Origin: Antrodiella citrinella | Taxonomy: Eukaryota > Basidiomycota > Agaricomycetes > Polyporales > Steccherinaceae | NCBI GenBank assembly: GCA_004802725.1 | Contig: SGPM01000281.1 | Location: forward strand, 1-36,395 | Length of the DNA stretch: 36,395 nt | Reading direction: 5' to 3' | Shown: piece after piece, positions 3,061 to 36,395 of the stretch | Position numbering within the stretch: position 1 is the stretch's first letter | Layout of the letters: every line of letters starts with the position of its first letter | Made by a program: the position numbers and the translations under genes | The notes under the pieces: model-generated | Databases searched by the model: none | Seen by the model: only the letters and a program-made list of their open reading frames with translations | Told to the model about the DNA's origin: nothing

Positions 3061-3658
3061 CATTCACGTCGCAGTTGTATACTTTCGTCTTTTCCGCTCT
3101 TCTTTTGATTTCTCATCCTACGCCTCGAACACCTCCTGATATTACTCAGTGTTCCATCTTCAAAGTTCTAGGTTTTTCTCGCTTTTCACATGCGTCTTAA
3201 CAGTAGCTCTAGGCGTATATCATTTTTGTATTTAAACTCCGACTTCGTATGTTTGCGAATTCATCTGTTGATTCCCCCCACTATCGTGTGCTATTCTTGC
3301 CACTTTACAACATTGCATACAAGTTGTAGCTGGCACGTTCAGTATGAGTCACGACAGGCTGAGTATTGAACATCAAACAACTACCAACTTGACCACCAAC
3401 AATGAATGTCAGCGTCTTGTGCGATGGAGTGCGACAGTCCGAATCAGCTAGGAAAGCGCAAACGAGATGTGACCACTGTGTCCAGACTGAGCAACTCGGT
3501 TCTACTGTTACCCAGTCTACCCACTTCTGGTGCTAGACCTGCAGACTCGAGTGTGAACTTATTGGGCCATGGAGCTGTTACTGAGGCTGTTGAACTCCCT
3601 TCATTTGTTTGTACATTTTTTCATTCATTATCTTTCACACAGGAATCACACTTATCGT
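3061..3658. other. Spacer between repeat copy 1 and the left gypsy LTR
   Basis: This is CT-rich sequence without a convincing gene. A 91-codon open frame from 3406 contains GKRKRD, but it runs into the LTR and shows no family resemblance. The stretch ending CTTTCACACAG at about 3642 looks like an intron acceptor, which may mean the LTR landed in an old gene. That is weak. Confidence 0.3.
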
Positions 3659-4757
3659 TGATGCACCAGACGGACCCCTGAACGCAGAAGTAACACACCC
3701 AACAATGGGGGTACTCCAGGAGGAGGACACCACGTAAGGGCGTAAGTAGAGGAGTTGTAAGGGTGGGCCGAGGACCTAGGAATGGAGTAGAGTAGTCCGA
3801 TAATGTTTGTATGTCGTCCGAGATGACTCGCGCAACACCCGATGACCTGCGAAGCCGCACGGGCGAAGTACCGAAATAGCTACGGGGCCTGCGGAGAAGT
3901 ACTAGACCGCACGGAATAGATACGTCGCGACGAGGTGGATGGTAAAACGCGATCGAGAGAGTCCGTGGAAGATACGAGGTTGACAGAAATAGGTCCGAGA
4001 GTGTCCGGACAGATGGACGATAGGGGCCGCGGGCAATATTGCAAAGATAAAGGAGGGGCGGCCGGGACAATAGCGGTATATTGAACAACGAGCAGAGGGG
4101 AAAACACGGCGTCGAGAGGGTCGTAAAAGCAATGGGGTCGCAGTAGAAGGTGAACACAGTAGTAAACACAGTAAAACTCGGGGCTTGTTAGAAACACAAC
4201 GCAACACAGTAAACGCAGGATAACCAAAGAACGCAAAAGGGGGTCGCAATAGAAATATACGCACGCGGTTCGCAAGGGTTCGTGAAATCTTCGCTCTCAC
4301 AGGTATTAAGGGGGAAAAGGGGAGGGGGGTCTTCTTTTTGTTCTAATGTACATAGTGCGCCTACTTATAGTAGGATACGGACTAATCAAACCGGTAGCTA
4401 CGAGAAAGAGTCGAGAAGTAAGAAACGAGATAAACGAAAGTGTCCGAGAAGGTACGAGAAAAGTCCGAGGAGTACTGTACAAAGTCCGAAGGAGATACGA
4501 TATACGAACGAGTGCATGAAAGAAAGTATCGGAGATGGGCGTGTAGCTCTCGCGGGGCTCCGGACAATGCGCGGACGCGAATTCGAAGGTTTCGGAAGTC
4601 GCGGGTGATGCGCAGGTCGATCGTCGGGAGCTTCGAACGTGAGTACGAGTCGAAGTAGCGGGCGGGAAGTCTTAAAAGGTACCGAGGTCGGGGCGGATGG
4701 GTGATAGACGGTGTGTAATAGCGGCGCACGGGTACCAGTGAGAATTGGGGCTCATCA
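3659..4757 (-). mobile_element. Ty3/gypsy-type LTR, minus orientation (left arm of a large inverted repeat)
   Basis: On the minus strand it begins TGATGAGCCCC and ends GGTGCATCA, so the tips are the inverted pair TGATG/CATCA expected of LTRs. It matches the plus-strand LTR at 5220-6310 along its whole length with scattered, mostly transition, differences; the match stops exactly at both tips. Just outside its 5' tip, at 4758-4770, the minus strand reads AGTTGGGGGGAGA, a good polypurine tract. That makes this the 3' LTR of an element whose body lay towards higher coordinates. Open frames inside it are shadows. Confidence 0.8.
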
Positions 4758-5219: not shown

Positions 5220-6310
5220 TGATGAGCCCCGATTCTCGCTGGTACCCGCGCGTCGCTATTACGCACCGACTAGCACTCATCCGCCCCTACCTCGGCACCT
5301 TCGAAGACTTCTCGTTCATCTCGTATTCACGTCCGCGCATTCCGACGATCGATCCGCGCATCACCCACGACGTCCGAAACCCTTGAACCCGCGTCCGAGC
5401 ATCGTCCGGAGCCACGCGAGAGCTATACGCCCACCTCCGATACCTCCTTTCGTACACTCGTTCCTATATCGTATCTCCCTCGGACATCATATCGTAGTTT
5501 CCGGACCTTTCTCATACCTTCTCGGACACTTTCGTTTGTCTTATTTCTTACTTCTCGACTCTTTCTCGTAGCTACCAATTAGATTAGTCCGTATCCTACT
5601 ATAAGTAGGCGCACTATGTACATTAGAACAAAAAGAAGATCCCCCTCCCCTTTTCCCCCTTAATACCTGTGAGAGCGAAGATTTCACGAACCCCTGCGAA
5701 CCGCGTGCGTATATTTCTATTGCGACCCCCTTTTGCGTTCTTTGGTTATCCTGTGTTTACTGCGTTGCGTTGCGTTTCTAACGAGCCCCGAGTTCTACTG
5801 CGTTTACTACTGCGTTCACCTTCTACTGCGACCCCATTGCGTTTACGACCCTCTCGACGCCGTGTTTTCACCTCTACTCGCTGTTCGATATACCGCTATC
5901 GTCCCGCGTCCCCTTCCTTTATCTTCGCAATATCGCCCGCGGCCCCTATCGTCCATCGGTCCGGACACTCTCGGACCTATTCCTGTCAGCTTCGTACTTT
6001 CCGCGGACCCTCTCGATCGCGTTTTATCAGTCAGCTAGTCACGCCATAGCCATTCCGCGCGGTCTAGTAATTCTCCGCAGGCTTCGTAGCTATTTCGGTA
6101 CTACGCTCGTACGGCCTCGTAGGTCACCGGGCGTTGCGCGAGTCATCTCGGACGACACACGAACATCACCGGACTACTCTACTCTATTCCTAGGTCCTCG
6201 GCCCACCCTTACGACTCCTCTACTTACGCCCTTGCGTGGTGTCCTCCTCCTGGAGTACCCCCATTGTTGGGTGGGTTACTTCTGCGTTCAGGAGCCCGTC
6301 TGGTGCATCA
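5220..6310 (+). mobile_element. Ty3/gypsy-type LTR, plus orientation (right arm of the inverted repeat)
   Basis: It begins TGATGAGCCCC and ends GGTGCATCA, mirroring the minus-strand LTR at 3659-4757. The two copies keep a conserved hairpin motif CCTACTATAAGTAGG (5595-5609 here) that includes a possible TATA box. No polypurine tract precedes it (upstream is GGATACCTCCGT). The five bases on each side (TCCGT and GCGTA) do not form a target-site duplication. It therefore reads as a solo or truncated LTR, joined to the left one by rearrangement or nested insertion. Confidence 0.75.
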
Positions 6311-6594
6311 GCGTATAAGCGGACAGCAATGTGTCTTGAAAATGTATGTATCAATGCAAACTGAATGTATTGGATCTAGTGAATTGTTTGTTTGCTGATT
6401 ATAACCACCAACTGGGACAGGGTCGATGTTTGTCACATCCAGGATGTGACTCAACGTGTTCGTTAATGTGTTTCCATTGCGTCAACGTGTGTGCCACTTC
6501 AATCCCTTTGTGTCTTTATTTTATCTTTTTGGTTTCCTCGTTTATTGTCTTGCAGAGTGTAGCCCTATGGTAGATAAAACTACAAAAGCAAGTA
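6311..6594. other. Spacer between right gypsy LTR and repeat copy 2
   Basis: AT-rich sequence with a short palindrome CACATCCAGGATGTG at 6434-6448. No gene is supported. Confidence 0.3.
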
Positions 6595-8531: not shown

Positions 8532-9460
8532 TTATTTCGCGTCCACATTCTCGACCTTCCGCCTCCACTCCTTGATCATCTCCACGCTGATCATCTTCAC
8601 GCCCCAGCGATCCGCGAACTGCCTGCAATCGTCCCGGCGCATCATGCTCCCTGTCTCGTTGTCGTTCACGAGCTCGCAGAGAAGACCGGCGCGCGGGAGG
8701 CCAGTCAAAGAGCAGAGGTCGACGGCGGATTCGGTGTGTCCGGGACGGGCGAGGACGCCTCCTGGACGGGGGCGCAGGGGGACGAGGTGTCCGGGACGGG
8801 TGAAGGAGGTGCGGGGATGGGTGCGTGCGCGAGTGCACGAGCTGTTAGGGCTCTGTCGTGTGCCGAGATACCCGTTGTAGTACCTGTGAACGGGTGTTAG
8901 AACAAATGTGTGAAAGGAGGTGCGAATGGACGTACCATGTTTGTAGTCCACAGTGATCGTGTACGCCGTCCCCTTTGGATCCTGGTTCTCAGTCACCATC
9001 ATGGGGATATCCAGCTCCTGCAGCCGTTCTCCGGGTACCGCAATGCAGATAAAGCCACTGAGAGGTAATGTTCCTTGAGCATTCCGAAGTAAAATAAATG
9101 ACGCTGCTGCACACACCTCGTATGCCGAATCATCCATGCCATCTTCTGCGTCGAACACTGACTCGCTGCAATGATGAGATCCCCTTCATTCTCTCTGCTC
9201 TCGTCGTCCATGACCACCAAGAACTCGCCCCTCCCGAACGCCGCCAACGCCTCCTCCATATCGTCAAACTGAAACTTTGACCGCGAGGATAGCTCCGAGT
9301 TCGGCCGTTCGGTGGGCCGCGCCGAGGTCGACGGCGCAGGAATGGCCTGCGACGTCATTGATGGAAGGACGGCAGGAGGGCAAGTGAAGAGAGATTTTGT
9401 GGGTCCGGAGACGAGGTTGATGGGTGGTGAAGGGAGCGGATGGACTGCGACCGGAGCCAT
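8532..9460 (-). CDS. RIB3: 3,4-dihydroxy-2-butanone-4-phosphate synthase (riboflavin synthesis), apparent frameshift
   Basis: This enzyme converts ribulose 5-phosphate to the four-carbon precursor of riboflavin plus formate. Exon 1 (from ATG 9460) contains MEEALAAFGRGEFLVVMDDE and SRENEGDL, the acidic metal-binding motif. Introns at 9058-9116 and 8884-8935 join it to SGFICIAV, GTAYTITVDYKHG and TTTGISAHDRA. The last exon carries PGHLVPLR, GGVLARPGHTESAVDLC and WGVKMISVEMI, ending at 8532. Between HDRALTARALA and RPGHLVPL (about 8800-8850) the frame shifts by one base and no intron can explain it. The site contains CCATCCCC on the coding strand. About 75 residues precede the core domain, longer than the usual start. 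A TATA sequence lies near 9594-9603. Identity is certain; integrity is not. Confidence 0.88.
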
Positions 9461-9593
9461 AGGAGCCAAGTATGTGGCGGTAATATTGTTGCGCGGAAAT
9501 TGAAATGACTCAGTCTGGGATTTCAACGTAGAGCTTCAGCGTCGCGTCCTTGTGTCAAGGGGGAAAGAAAGGAGATTTCGCATGTAGGGGGAG

Positions 9594-10856: not shown

Positions 10857-12265
10857 CTACCAAGGTATCCTCCACCAATCTGGCTCTCCAAGCCTCGTGA
10901 AGAAACCATTTTTCTCATGAGAAATCCTCAAGATGCCCCTAGCTAGACAACGGGGTAAATATCCTCTCAGCAGCTCGACCTCCTGCCCGTACTTCCCTTG
11001 CAACTCAAACTCCGGCATGGTTGTGTGTCCAGACTGCACTGTCCAAACAACGCGCTTCAGCTTGGTGCGCTTGTCCAGATGTACATCAAGAGCCTTCCAG
11101 TCAAAGTCGACTTCGCTCTATCAACATTTGCCCGTGATACTCCATCCAGCACCTAGCCTCCAAATTGATCGTCAAACATGACACGGAGGGCGGTGCGTTG
11201 AAAATGCTGGCCATAAGCTGGGAAAAATATCTCGAGCGGACGACTTTATCCTCCTGTCTGTAGACGTATGTCTCAAATACGCCCACGACGAGGAGGCTGG
11301 ACAGCCGTGTGCAGCATCCTATGTTCAAACTCTAGACGAAACGACGATGTCAGCGGCAAGTTCCTTGTTTGTCCGAAGCATGTATTGTGGAATCGCCACA
11401 CATACCTCATCATGAATTTCAGGATCCTCATACAACACCTTGAGGCGGAGGTCCTCTAAAGTCTCGGAGACTGCGAGCATAAAGTCATTGAGACACTCGA
11501 TGCTGTCACAAATCTCCGCGCTCCGCAGCTCGTCCAGGCAATGCGATCCTCTAAGGATTGCTAGCACATATTGGTGTGTGCGGGACTTGGAAGGGCCTGC
11601 GCAGAGATGTGATATACGGAGGTCGTCCCTTATATTCCGTCCAGCGACATACGCCCCCGATACCCCATCCGTGATTGGGGCTTCCGTACGTCGAACGGGT
11701 CGGAGGGACGTCATGTGCAGCGTTCCGATCGACGTGAATAAATTGAGCACCTCCACGACGCTGAACACCGTATCGACCTTGTCTGGCACCTAAGTCTCGG
11801 GCTCCGTCACAAAGTCTATAACAAAAAGACTGAGTTTGTAGAGATGTACGCGTGGGCCGATCGTACCCGGCGTTAGATAGCCTAACTCGAGGGTCTGTAG
11901 TACAGGGAGTCGAACCAGAAGGTGACCGATGTCGTTGGCGTCCATATTGTTATATATGATGATAAGGTGCTTGATGAGGCCTGAGACGGAGTTGCGCTCG
12001 GACCCTGAGAGGAAGTCGCGGAAAGCGTCGAGATTGCGCGTGACTTCGTCGACGACGATGAGTTTCTTAAAGAGTAGGGCGCGAGCTGAAATGTGCCAGT
12101 GCCAGCAGACCAATGTACACGTCGCCAGCTCTGGCTTGTCCAGATAATCGCATATATTGTCCACGAGCTCTCGTGGTATGTTGTGAATCTCAGGTGGCAT
12201 CCCTATGAGACGTCTTCCACAGATGTTAGAATAAGATACGGTACCAAGGTACACACTTACCTCAT
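10857..12265 (-). pseudogene. F-box family relic B, nearly full length but interrupted
   Basis: A probable 5-nt first exon at ATG 12265 splices over a 47-nt intron (12214-12260). The frame then reads PRELVDNICDYLDKPELATC and TLVCWHWHISARALLFKKLI, a clear F-box, the SKP1-binding motif of ubiquitin-ligase adaptors. An in-frame TAG at 11790-11792 (read ETxVPDKVDT, possibly from CAG) breaks it. The frame continues through HCLDELRSAEICDSIECLND to a 74-nt intron (11332-11405) and GCCTRLSSLLVVGVF. Near 11120 a frame change is needed to reach FDWKALDVHLDKRTKLKRVV and LLRGYLPRCLARGILRI. A start at 12200 is also possible. Two lesions suggest a pseudogene, although both could be sequence errors. Confidence 0.7.
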
Positions 12266-12615
12266 GTCCAGATCGACAATTAAGTGGTCAGTGACCCGAG
12301 GCTCTGTCTGAGATCAAGCAATGGTATCAGCCTGAGTGGAGCGTATCCGTCTACAGTGAACTGGCGAATTGAAATGTTCAATTGGCCTGGGTCTTATTCG
12401 ACTCGTACGGCACCCAAAGAAAGTTTGATGTGAGTGAGACGACCCTTAGGTCTCGGTGGTTCTGTCGCAGGGAGATTTCGAACTGAGACCGTCCAAGCGG
12501 GAGGCATTTGCGGAATAGTACCCCCAAGTTCAACCAGGACCCCGAAGCGCAATACCCCGATCAAGCGCCAGTTTCGCGCACAGCGTGAATTTGAACTCGT
12601 CCAGCTCAAGTCTAG
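12266..12615. other. Spacer between F-box relic B and the cysteine-rich relic
   Basis: Open frames occur on both strands (plus 12434-12865, minus 12394-12609), but none shows a recognised domain. No RNA gene is evident. Confidence 0.3.
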
Positions 12616-16921: not shown

Positions 16922-18455
16922 ATGGATCATACGATTCGACGTAAGTCATTTCTACCGAGGACTGTGGCCAGACTCTGACCTGTATCGCAGATCATGCAGG
17001 TACCATAGAGTCCGCTCAACGCCACCTTCCCCACGAAATGGTGGATAACATTTGCGGATATCTGGACGTCAAACACTATCCAGACAAACAAGCATTGGCG
17101 GCGTGCACGTTGGTTTGCCGGCACTGGCACACGTCAGCTCGTGCGGTGCTATTCGAAAGGATCATAGTTCCAGACATCCACAGGGACTTCCGCAATAATA
17201 TCGACACCTTCGGCCCTTTCCTTGAGTCCATTCACATGAATGGACAATCCCGGTCGATCAAACATGTCATTATTGCAGGCAACACATGGGACCCGATCAG
17301 GTTGACCGCCCATGAACTGTCCCATTACTTGGCCAAGTTGCCTGCGCTTCATACCCTCGAATTGTGGTATGTCTTATTGAAGCTTGACAGCGCAAATGGA
17401 TGCGGCTGCCAAGACGTTGGGTCCTCGGTGTCTTTGGAGAAGCTCACCATCTCATCCGTAAAGTTTGAGATATCAAGTACATCCGAGACGTCGAGCACGT
17501 TCGAGCCGAAGGAAAGTTCACTACTGAACCGTGACGACTCAGTTGAAGGAGACGTCATGGAGTGCAGTCTTGTGGAGACACTCGAACTTTTCCGGAACGT
17601 TAAATCGCTGCAGCTTCGCGCCGTGCAACCTGCCGACGACAACGGTGACGGGATGGTTGCCTTCCCTCAAGGAGCTACCGCATTGATAACGGGGCCGATA
17701 AGTCTTCGCATCGCAGAACTCAAAACCATGAGCGGCCCGCAAGGTGCTACGCATACGGTCGTGCTATCCATACTGCAAGAATCGTGCTGTTTGGACGAAC
17801 TGCGTAAGTTGGAGTTCTGGGATACAGCCCAATGCTTCGATGGACTTGCGCCGGCCATCTCAGATACCCTGGAAGATCTGCTGGTGTCTTGTTCCGACAT
17901 GTATGATAATGGCGCTGAGGTCATTCCAGTAAGCACTTGCTCTACGTTCAAGTAAGGGAGCGGAGTCTGACATGATCTTTGTAGAGCCCGTACCTGGGAT
18001 GCTTTACACGACTCTCCCGTCTCACCATCTCGGGGACGTTATACACCATGATGTCCTTCAGCACTGAGCAGGGCAGAAATGTGCGCTCGAGGCGTTTTTC
18101 TAGCCTAATCGATGGTGTATTGGATGCCCCTCCCACGTTGTCGCATTTGAAGATCGACATTGAATGTGACCATTATCTCCCGGAGACCATGATGGACCGG
18201 CTCATGTTTGACTGGGAAGCTCTTGATCAAGCGCTGGAGGATCGTACCCAGCTTGTGCGAGTAATCTTTGGCCTGGAAGCGTTACGAGAGGACAGTGAGG
18301 CGGACGTGGAACTGCTGAGGACATATTTGTCCCGCTGTCAGGCCAAGGGAATATTAGAAATTCGTAAGTGAAGTTTGTATATGGCCTACATAGAACAATC
18401 CTGACATTCCATGCGTACTTACAGAGACAAACATGCGAAAGCCCCGTCAAGCCTA
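16922..18455 (+). CDS. F-box protein, intact family member C
   Basis: Exon 1 (16922-16940, MDHTIR) splices over 16941-16990 to an F-box: RHLPHEMVDNICGYLDVKHY, then ALAACTLVCRHWHTSARAVL. Such proteins bind SKP1 and present substrates to a cullin ubiquitin ligase. The remaining roughly 370 residues have leucine-rich spacing (LPALHTLELW, LSRLTISG) but no defined repeat. A 56-nt intron (17929-17984) leads to the last exon with LIDGVLDAPPTLSHLKIDIE and LRTYLSRCQAKGILEI. Without further splicing the gene stops at 18371. A good GTAAGT (18365) and ACAG (18425) would add QTNMRKPRQA and stop at 18455. It is the only undamaged close member here; relics A and B are its nearest paralogs and lie on the other strand. 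The substrate is unknown. Confidence 0.8.
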
Positions 18456-28648: not shown

Positions 28649-30101
28649 TCAAAATTTGAGTAAACCCATCCTATGCATCCCAGGCAAATGCTGCCTGAAT
28701 GCCACCACCACCTCGCCAAACGTCCTCTCTGGATCCAGACAATCCGTGAATACGACCACCATCGCTCCCACGTTCGCGCGTCGACTGAATGACATATCCA
28801 CGTCTTTCCACTGCTTCATTTCAAACGACCACATAATATCGCCGCGATGACTGTATTGGTCCCAGGTCATTTCGATGGTGATCTGAGGGGATGTGTGCGA
28901 GGAGATAGTCAAGAGGGATGACAGGAGGACAGTGACTTGGTCAATGATGAGTTCGGCTGTACTCGCCAATGGGAGAATGAGTTGTAAACGGGTTAGTGCC
29001 ATGCAGCGTGTTAGGTCGTACTAGAGAACAGTTGGGATAAGTTTCACTGGAAAGGACCAGATCAATGACATGCCTTCTCGTCCGGTTTCAGTTCAGGCCA
29101 TAGTGTCAAAGATAGACGTTGCAAGCTTGAGCTCCCTGTTCCCTGCAGCATCGCGTTAGAGATGGACTCGGAGGTCGGGTCCCCGAGCTCCAAGTCCCGC
29201 AATGTGCTTAATGCGCCATGCCATTGGTTGACGAGACCCAGTGCATCGACATGGTGCATCGAGTGCCTCGTCACGGGATGCCTCACCGACACGAGCTTTT
29301 CGATGCGGAGATGTCCTCCTGCGATGGAGTGCTGCGACGAGTCTGTCCTGGAGAAGTTGAAGCGCAGAAAGACACGGGGTACGTGATCAAGATGCAACGT
29401 CCCAACCACGCCGAACAGTCTAAGGAGTTCTTCTAAGCCACACGGTGCTTCCCAACTGCCACGCCTTTTATCTGCCAGCACAAAACCCGTGTTCTGAAGC
29501 CGGAGCTCGGTGAGAGGTCGCGGTGTTGACCATCCCTTAGGGTCAGTAAGGCTCGGTGCGAGCAATACACCCTCCAACTTTAATTCCATTAGTGCAGGCA
29601 ATTTAGAAAGAACCCCGTCCACCGTCGCCGCCGTGATCATAGTGAAATAGTCATCCGGACGAGTCTGACGCGACATCGGTACATGTCGACCACCCACGAC
29701 CGTTAAATTTCGGACGTGCCACGCAACTCCGGGACAGACGGAGAGGAATCTGCGGAACGTGTCGATGTTGCGGGCGTGTTGCCCGCCGTGGAAGATGAGG
29801 ACAGCGCGGAAGAGGTGGGATTGGGACACGGCGTGCCAGGCGCGGCAGACTGAGAGGCAGGATATGAGGGCGGGCCTGTCTATGAGGCGGAATATGTCTT
29901 CGAGAAGGTCTGCGTGTAGGCGATCTGTTGTGTTGACTTTGTGCTATGGGAGACCGAGAGATAGAGGTCAGGGGAAGGTCGAATCTTAAGCGCGTAATGA
30001 GACTCAACTGAGACGGTATCGGGCTGATCGTTGATTTTGGGTAAAGACTTCATCGTCTTCGTAGTAGAAAGAGAAGCAACGAAAAGTCGAAGACGACACA
30101 T
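28649..30101 (-). CDS. F-box protein, diverged family member D
   Basis: ATG 30101 (or the internal 30053) opens a short exon. Intron 29944-30008 leads to an F-box: RLHADLLEDIFRLIDRPALI and SCLSVCRAWHAVSQSHLFRA. About 250 residues of leucine-rich sequence follow (LPALMELKLEGVLL, PRPLTELRLQNTGF, LEELLRLFGVVGTLHL, ALSTLRDLELG). A 53-nt intron at 29021-29073 appears to use a GC donor (AAG/GCATGT) with a TAG acceptor. It joins DEK to YDLTRCMALTRLQLIL and a last exon ending FRQHLPGMHRMGLLKF at 28649. The ending resembles LRGYLPRCLAKGILEI of family members A-C, so this is an older member of the same expansion. Presumed SKP1-binding ubiquitin-ligase adaptor, substrate unknown. If the GC donor is wrong, the frame stops at 29062. 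Confidence 0.75.
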
Positions 30102-34498: not shown

Positions 34499-35158
34499 GA
34501 GGTTCGATCGTGGTGGGTGGGTGTCGGGGCGCTGTATTGACTACGGATATGTACTTCCTATCTTTCTTGAGCGATGGTCACGCCGTGGACGCTGGTTCTA
34601 TGTAAATGTATGATATGGTACCATTCTAGCATTGCACATCTGTTACGGCACGAACAACTCGATATATAAAGCGGTGTGCTGTACTCACGTGAAGCTTTCT
34701 ACCTTACACACGAAGTCACTCTTGACGAATCTCAAGTTGAACGGCGCGCAGCAGACTGACTGACATCTATCCCATAGGAGAAAGAAGGCCTCGAGCTCGG
34801 GGAGTTCGCTCGAAATTTGAAGCTAACGTCAGAACACATATATTGGCTATCAATCTTCTCCCTTTCCTTCAACTCTTCAACGACACAGAAGCCCAAAGAA
34901 AGATTCGAAGAAGACACAGTTAAGAGTCATAAGTTAGTCGGCGGAATACATCGACGCCGAGTCTCAAAAATCAAAGGGGGCGGGACAACGTCAACGCAAA
35001 ATCGAAAGTGAAAGTGAAAGGGGATGCGACGCAGAACCGAAGGTAAGTAGCGCGAATTGTGAAGGAGTGAATGGTGACGTGGATAAACGGTTCGGGAACA
35101 ACGACGATCGTGGGTGGTAGGGTGCGTGTATGATCTATCGCGGTGTGTGCACGACACT
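34499..35158. other. Spacer between the LRR gene and the pheromone gene
   Basis: It holds the LRR 3' end and, from the right, the 3' untranslated part of the pheromone transcript. A minus frame at 34732-34917 contains CVVE, but internally, so it is not a second pheromone. No gene is called. Confidence 0.4.
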
Positions 35159-35220
35159 CTGTCAAAATGATACAACTCATCAGTCACGTCGCAGCCCTGA
35201 GAACAAGCAAAAAGACATAC
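35159..35220 (-). other. Predicted intron in the 3' untranslated region of the pheromone gene
   Basis: Seven bases after the pheromone stop codon, the minus strand reads GAG/GTATGT. It continues through a branch-like TGACTGAT and ends TTTTGACAG at 35159, giving a 62-nt intron. It is purely a splice-signal prediction. Confidence 0.45.
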
Positions 35221-35227
35221 CTCACAT

Positions 35228-35347
35228 CTAAGCAACGACACAGCCGTTCGAGCCTCCGGGATTGCCGTCCTCGAAGTCAGAGGGGATCTCAACCTCCTGG
35301 GTGGTGGTGGTGGTAACGGGGGCGATGGTGAATTCGAAGGCGTCCAT
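35228..35347 (-). CDS. Mating pheromone precursor (farnesylated CaaX type)
   Basis: A 39-codon frame from ATG 35347 to TAG 35228 encodes a peptide beginning MDAFEFTIAPVTTTTT and ending SDFEDGNPGGSNGCVVA. Mushroom pheromone precursors are 35-70 residues, often start MDxF, have a variable middle and end in a CaaX box, very often CVVA or CVIA. The cysteine would be farnesylated and carboxymethylated after loss of VVA. N-terminal cleavage usually follows a charged pair, here possibly within DFED. The mature lipopeptide activates a STE3-type receptor on a compatible partner. A TATAAAA box on the minus strand (35448-35454) lies about 100 bp upstream with a CT-rich leader between. No receptor gene is visible, so it may be a mating-type B-locus gene near the edge or a dispersed, non-mating-type copy. 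Confidence 0.85.
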   Translation of the reverse strand: MDAFEFTIAPVTTTTTQEVEIPSDFEDGNPGGSNGCVVA

Positions 35348-35447
35348 TGTAAAATGAGGTTGAGAGCGAGGTTCAGGAGATAAAGCTGCTTGGATTGGGT
35401 GGGTAGAAAGCTGGCAGTGAGGTTTCTTTCGTCGCGAATAGACCGCC

Positions 35448-35454
35448 TTTTATA
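35448..35454 (-). promoter_or_regulatory. TATA box of the pheromone gene
   Basis: The minus strand reads CATATAAAAGGCGG about 100 bp before the pheromone ATG, followed by a pyrimidine-rich leader. On the plus strand further upstream, ACAAAAGGG (35587-35595) resembles, with one extra A, the pheromone-response element ACAAAGGGA known from Ustilago; that part is speculative. Confidence 0.5.
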
Positions 35455-35595
35455 TGTTGGCGTCGCAATTGTCCCAAGGCATCGAGACTGAGCAGTGAGG
35501 CTTAGTGAGGGCGCAATACCAATAGGCTAGGTAGTAGCCCAAACCAGCCACTACTCCGCTAACGAATCTCGATCACCGATTGGGAGACAAAAGGG

Positions 35596-36395
35596 CCCTG
35601 ATCGCTTTGAATCATGAGTAGCACTTTAGCGAATTTCCGAAAGTCTGCTCCTATGGGCAAGACAATAAGCTGGCGTCGGCGACATCGCGGCCGCTCATCT
35701 AGGACAGATTTCTTATTGTCTGCGTGGACCTGAGCAGACATATTGTAAATCAAAAGCCAATAATCCTCTTGTCATTTCCGGCTGCTGACTTGGAAGTAGA
35801 AGCGAACTTCATTAGGCTCCAGCTCAAATGGTCGATAGCTTCAAGTTCCAGTTCGTTGTAGTACACACTGGCACTTGTACCTGGTGATTGAGCGGGTGAT
35901 CACGCGGTATCCATGCTTTAGTCTAACTCCAGTACTCACCTTTTTGTTCTTGACACCCACAGTAGTTTCAGTCCATTCACATCGTATTTGTAGATGGAAT
36001 ACTGAGCAACTTGTCGTGATGTCTAGAATTATTGGCACGACAGTGACTTACTCGGACTCAGTCTGGAACTCGACCAACGACGATGATCCACCTGAGATGC
36101 TTAGCAGCTTGTATATCACGCACTTTTCTGAACACAGAATCCCGCTTGGGGCTTTCATGAAACAACATTTCGAGGTTGTTGACGGGCCGTAACGAACAAG
36201 TTGAATTCGAACTTGAGACCTACGGCATTTGCCGTGATCGTGATTTGTCAGAGTTCCCTCATCATGATCTTCTTGGCCGTCGTCCGAGTCTTTTCACTCC
36301 GAATGCGTGTGCAGTGATATCCTGGACAGCCGATACAGAAATCTCATAATTGCTTTCCGCATTCAGGTTCACGAAATGGGTTTACTGTGTTCGTA
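35596..36395. other. Right-hand region upstream of the pheromone gene
   Basis: A plus frame at 35875-36192 (105 codons) and fragments on the minus strand show no family resemblance. No seven-helix receptor sequence and no second CaaX-ending small frame were found. A gene may begin beyond the window. Confidence 0.35.

Follow-up and report, generated by a model that had tools for sequence, protein, structure and literature searches.

The short reading frame near one end of the window very probably encodes a basidiomycete pheromone precursor. We consider it likely, from its sequence and from its relatives in the same genome, that the gene encodes the precursor of an a-factor-type lipopeptide, and that it is one of four dispersed paralogs which group apart from the pheromone genes of the receptor clusters. 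The window is 36,395 nt long and comprises the entire contig C203 of an assembly of 30.0 Mb in 602 contigs. The other three members of the group are located on contigs C395, C453 and C155.

Translation of the window bears out the original prediction of a 39-codon frame that begins MDAF and carries a CaaX terminus exactly at its stop. The coordinates proposed for it are correct; the frame is read on the minus strand from 35347 to 35228, and CVVA is followed directly by TAG (Table 1). The encoded protein of 39 aa is MDAFEFTIAPVTTTTTQEVEIPSDFEDGNPGGSNGCVVA. When this protein is aligned with 14 pheromone precursors from the receptor clusters of the same genome, the cysteine of its CaaX box is Cys36, and an aspartate is found two residues past the proline that lies 14 residues N-terminal of this cysteine. 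Within the probable mature region, PSDFEDGNPGGSNGC, the stretch PGGSNGC is identical in the C395 paralog. Two further points that had been noted from the sequence also hold: glycine stands directly N-terminal of Cys36, and there is no aromatic residue nearby, the closest being Phe25 at a distance of 11 residues. The protein therefore has the features of precursors of STE3-ligand pheromones, being short, with CaaX at the stop, an MDxF start, and the spacing of proline and an acidic residue.

Table 1. Positions in the window of the pheromone-like gene and of the sequences associated with it
Feature	Position	Strand	Details and basis
Pheromone-like precursor CDS, MDAF start, end ...IPSDFEDGNPGGSNG-CVVA	35228..35347	-	39 codons + TAG; translation, alignment with locus genes, protein search
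CaaX box CVVA and stop	35228..35242	-	Translation; predicted farnesylation, -aaX removal and carboxymethylation
Probable mature region PSDFEDGNPGGSNGC, Pro 14 residues N-terminal of Cys	35240..35284	-	Alignment; putative cleavage site
TATA box TATAAAAG	35447..35454	-	107 nt upstream of ATG
Candidate 3'UTR intron, 62 nt, GTATGT...CTGAT...CAG	35159..35220	-	Begins 7 nt past stop; sequence rule
Upstream stretch resembling sequence that precedes the C395 paralog (C395:7374-7480)	35563..35678	-	80.5% over 118 aligned bp
3' flank alignable with 3' flank of the C453 paralog	34923..35105	-	69%, 186 aligned bp
Contig end, possible contig junction	36207..36395	+	Last 189 bp 99.5% identical to C395:435-623

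The genome carries receptor and pheromone clusters of its own with which this gene can be compared. A profile search of contigs for STE3 receptors (PF02076) gave at least 25 matches on C502, C581, C86 and C107, and among the matches listed these group by position into eight genes: two on C502, four on C581, and one each on C86 and C107. We scanned 162 kb around the STE3 genes for CaaX frames and chose by eye 14 locus pheromone genes, five on C502 and nine on C581; for three of these an inner MD was used as the start. Their products are 37-59 aa long and have ends of the CVIA, CTIA or CVVA type. Four of the ten DNA matches between the two contigs place C502 collinear with the 130-148 kb region of C581, at 90% identity at one end, 76% inside, and 71% and 88% at the other end; the remaining six lie off this line, and at least some of these are between paralogous receptor genes. 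Thus C502:1-11892 and C581:130-148 kb are apparently two diverged haplotypes of one receptor/pheromone cluster, the source being perhaps a dikaryon; alternatively, the cluster could have been duplicated, or the sample could have been mixed.

Much of the plan of the gene in the window is common to these locus genes. The MDxF start is found in 17 of the 18 pheromone-like genes (13 of 14 at the loci, where one gene begins MDPQ), and a proline 13-15 residues before the CaaX cysteine likewise in 17, the exception being a different locus gene from the one with MDPQ. The TATA box that had been seen about 100 bp upstream is TATAAAAG, and TATAWA or TATAAG occurs at -97 to -154 in all 18 genes (14/14 locus, 4/4 dispersed), compared with 6.6% of 4,000 genomic windows of 166 nt. 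When the motif was narrowed to TATAWA and the search taken to 260 nt upstream, it was present in 16 of 17 genes, in one of them at -203 only; it was not found within 260 nt upstream of the C395 gene. The start motif, the proline spacing and the TATA position that the gene has in common with the locus genes support the earlier assignment to the pheromone-precursor type.

The leader and the region past the stop codon had also been singled out. The 80 nt before the ATG are 65% C+T, which is within the range of 59-69% seen in the other pheromone-like genes and is a modest enrichment over the genomic background (mean 50%, SD 8%), as 4.7% of background 80-mers reach this value. The possible 3'UTR intron corresponds to the 62-nt candidate in Table 1. 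Our strict rule for such introns called for GTRNGT in the first 60 nt past the stop, YAG 45-71 nt on, and CTRAY before the YAG. Seven of the 18 genes pass this rule (3/4 dispersed, 4/14 locus) and nine pass a looser one (4/4 dispersed, 5/14 locus), counts that describe the rules only. Both rules were devised after inspection of the flanks, and the strict one passes over several locus genes whose 3' flank looks intron-like by eye. In 200 rounds of shuffled flanks the mean was 0.135 of 18 genes for the strict rule and 0.41 for the loose rule, with maxima of 2 and 3, respectively; the two rules are passed by 2.3% and 4.3% of 5,000 genomic windows. The candidate introns of the dispersed genes are 59-64 nt long in their first listed form, and they begin 3-12 nt past the stop.

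The four dispersed genes were connected by protein searches of the genome. The C203 protein as query returned itself, C395:7788-7907 (69% identity, E 2.1e-12) and C453:1710-1823 (55%, E 1.6e-7), with C155 not listed, and the C453 query returned the same three. The C395 query added C155:42480-42605 (50% identity, E 0.037), and the C155 query, whose product is 36% identical to the C203 protein, returned only itself and C395 (E 0.049). By score, C155 thus appears tied to the group weakly. All four proteins terminate in SNGC[VIT][VI]A, and the residue before the cysteine is glycine in each, compared with none of the 14 locus proteins, which have tyrosine (8), phenylalanine (1), glutamine (3) or serine (2) at this position. 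The four queries retrieve only each other in the genome, and the two locus pheromones of the 14 that were run as queries retrieve locus members only. The group accordingly consists of paralogs that match over their full length and have a common end and gene plan.

The existence of these paralogs bears on whether the frame could be a chance occurrence or a relic. We screened for frames of 30-80 aa that start with MDxF and terminate in an aliphatic CaaX box. One was obtained from 300 dinucleotide-shuffled copies of the window (10.9 Mb), none from those 300 copies when proline at -14 was added, and none from 12 background loci of the same genome (120 kb in total). Scaled to 30 Mb, the shuffle rate gives about three such frames expected by chance, and hence the MDxF...CaaX motif alone is merely suggestive. 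For the C203 frame a chance origin is very unlikely because full-length paralogs of it exist. The three frames expected from the motif alone would nonetheless be in keeping with a chance frame, and a functionless, drifting duplicate of a pheromone gene would suit the pairs C395-C453 and C203-C155, two of the six, in which dN/dS is near 0.8 and so not far under 1. A relic of either kind is very improbable, however, given four intact frames with their TATA and intron candidates, and given that most of the differences between the C203 and C395 coding sequences (15 of 27) fall at third codon positions. dN is lower than dS in all six pairs, clearly for C203-C395 (dN 0.18, dS 0.72) and slightly for C395-C453 (0.28 and 0.36) and C203-C155 (0.69 and 0.81).

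Profile searches separate the dispersed proteins from the locus proteins. The Pfam Pheromone profile (PF08015) has no match in any of the four dispersed proteins at E values up to 10, and matches 11 of the 14 locus proteins. Only one of the 14 (22.6 bits) reaches the cut-off of 22 bits, and the cut-off is therefore a poor test in this genome. The absence of even a weak match sets the dispersed four apart and argues somewhat against filing them with the locus pheromones. The 18 pheromone-like proteins had no match at E values up to 1 in a PDB profile search, and Rfam gave none in the window at gathering scores.

This difference in PF08015 matches is also what would be expected if the gene, with the same plan, encoded a small prenylated protein other than a secreted pheromone, for instance a CaaX peptide that stays inside the cell or a different kind of signal. 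The retention of the SNGC end with no aromatic residues near it, and a contig on which no STE3 match was listed, also fit such a protein. We nevertheless regard it as quite improbable, as the MDxF start, the proline spacing and the TATA position are those of pheromone genes that lie beside STE3 genes.

With regard to genomic location, the original prediction offered two readings, namely that the gene is at or near a mating-type B locus, or that it is one of the dispersed pheromone genes found outside it. The search of the contig for STE3 receptors that had been proposed as a check was run, and there were none on C203 (36.4 kb) among the matches listed; linkage to STE3, the mark of a B-locus gene, was thus not found on this contig, of which no more than 1,048 bp precede the ATG. 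There were also none among the matches listed on the paralog contigs C395 (17.8 kb, with the gene mid-contig), C453 (14.9 kb) and C155 (43.7 kb). The STE3 genes among the matches listed and the pheromone clusters are instead on other contigs. The first reading is consequently not upheld, and the second gains support from the paralogs on three contigs that likewise have no STE3 match listed.

The gene could still belong to a B locus if a subregion bearing a receptor had been cut off from it by the fragmented assembly. Three of the four dispersed genes have a contig end less than 1.8 kb away (1,048 bp for C203, about 1.07 kb for C155 and 1.7 kb for C453), so that their surroundings on one side are almost unseen, and in its plan the gene is similar to the locus pheromone genes. 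Against these points, the STE3 matches listed fall on four other contigs and on none of the contigs that carry the paralogs, and the residue before the cysteine distinguishes the dispersed four from the 14 locus pheromones. Membership in a truncated B locus is therefore improbable, and we favour a dispersed gene. The placement of the three genes beside contig ends might be due to chance or to an adjacent feature that breaks the assembly.

The end of the contig gives some indication of what may lie beyond it. No place other than C395:435-623 that matches the last 189 bp of C203 was found in the genome. C395 may follow C203, with an overlap that is not clean, as C395:1-434 matches nothing in the window. 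With such a junction the two genes would be separated by about 8 kb and would point away from each other. We also considered that the C203 and C395 genes are alleles of one gene. This was rejected, because the genes flank the shared 189 bp on either side, one at a distance of 860 bp and the other of 7.2 kb. A query of 401 bp that includes the C203 gene has one match in the genome, a result that collapsed haplotypes could give as well.

No link to mating type was seen among the neighbouring genes on C203 and C395. The window encodes a DHBP synthase (3,4-dihydroxy-2-butanone 4-phosphate synthase, a riboflavin-pathway enzyme) in at least two exons at 8532-9535 on the minus strand, and three frames with F-box matches above the Pfam cut-off, at 11793-12287 (-), 16945-17955 (+) and 29062-29943 (-). 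On C395 there are an Aip3/Bud6 homolog and a frame (C395:871-2121) with a weak F-box-like match below the cut-off. The window also contains an inverted pair of 1.1 kb sequences (3651-4757 and 5220-6319) with 88% identity. A piece of this pair, about 120 bp at 78-80%, is also found at C453:25-147, at a distance of 1.6 kb from the paralog on that contig, and these sequences are perhaps parts of a mobile element.

Products of the CaaX pathway are farnesylated, lose their -aaX residues, and are carboxymethylated and exported. By this route Cys36 of the C203 protein would be farnesylated, the last three residues would then be removed and the cysteine carboxymethylated, while the N-terminal part would be cut off near the Pro-x-Asp motif. 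The exported peptide would have approximately 11-14 residues and end in ...GGSNGC(farnesyl)-OMe.

The SNGC end is found in four copies on contigs with no STE3 match listed, and the C203 gene has a single match in the genome despite the two apparent haplotypes of the cluster. For these reasons the peptide is perhaps a signal common to all strains and not one that discriminates mates, a question on which we would lean neither way. Its receptor would then be an STE3 protein that is not tied to a pheromone cluster. No MDxF...CaaX frame is found around the STE3 genes at C86:48033-49100, C107:6035-6949 and C581:165052-166055 (flanks C86:25001-54500, C107:1-19500 and C581:148501-197000), which makes their products possible partners, although the absence of a pheromone gene near them is unproven, because MDxF is missing from one of the 14 locus genes and these flanks contain a few further CaaX frames. 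We tentatively suggest, as a possibility that we rate as rather unlikely, that the four SNGC-CaaX genes provide a strain-invariant farnesylated ligand for such a receptor, and thereby a second lipopeptide channel apart from mate choice. If it exists, this channel might serve, for example, self or developmental signalling. We know of no identified ligands for the STE3-like receptors that mushroom genomes carry outside the mating-type locus, and intact pheromone-like genes without linked receptors provide candidate ligands that can be directly synthesized and tested. The combination of TATA position, proline spacing and a post-stop intron candidate also provides a practical route to genes of this type, which Pfam left unreported in this genome.

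Among known systems, the closest comparison within this genome is with the B-locus pheromone precursors (PF08015; the 14 genes on C581 and C502). The gene in the window resembles these in its MDxF start, proline spacing, TATA box, post-stop intron candidate and CaaX-type end, whereas it differs in the glycine before the cysteine, the SNGC end common to its paralogs, the contig with no STE3 match and the lack of a PF08015 match. Some mushrooms, such as Laccaria and Flammulina, are reported to have dispersed pheromone-like genes that are not of mating type, which lie outside receptor clusters and encode intact CaaX precursors. The four genes studied here are alike in both respects. The product may also be compared with yeast a-factor, in that it would work in a similar manner as a farnesylated, carboxymethylated and exported peptide, although the yeast precursor is expected to differ in its sequence and in its processing sites.
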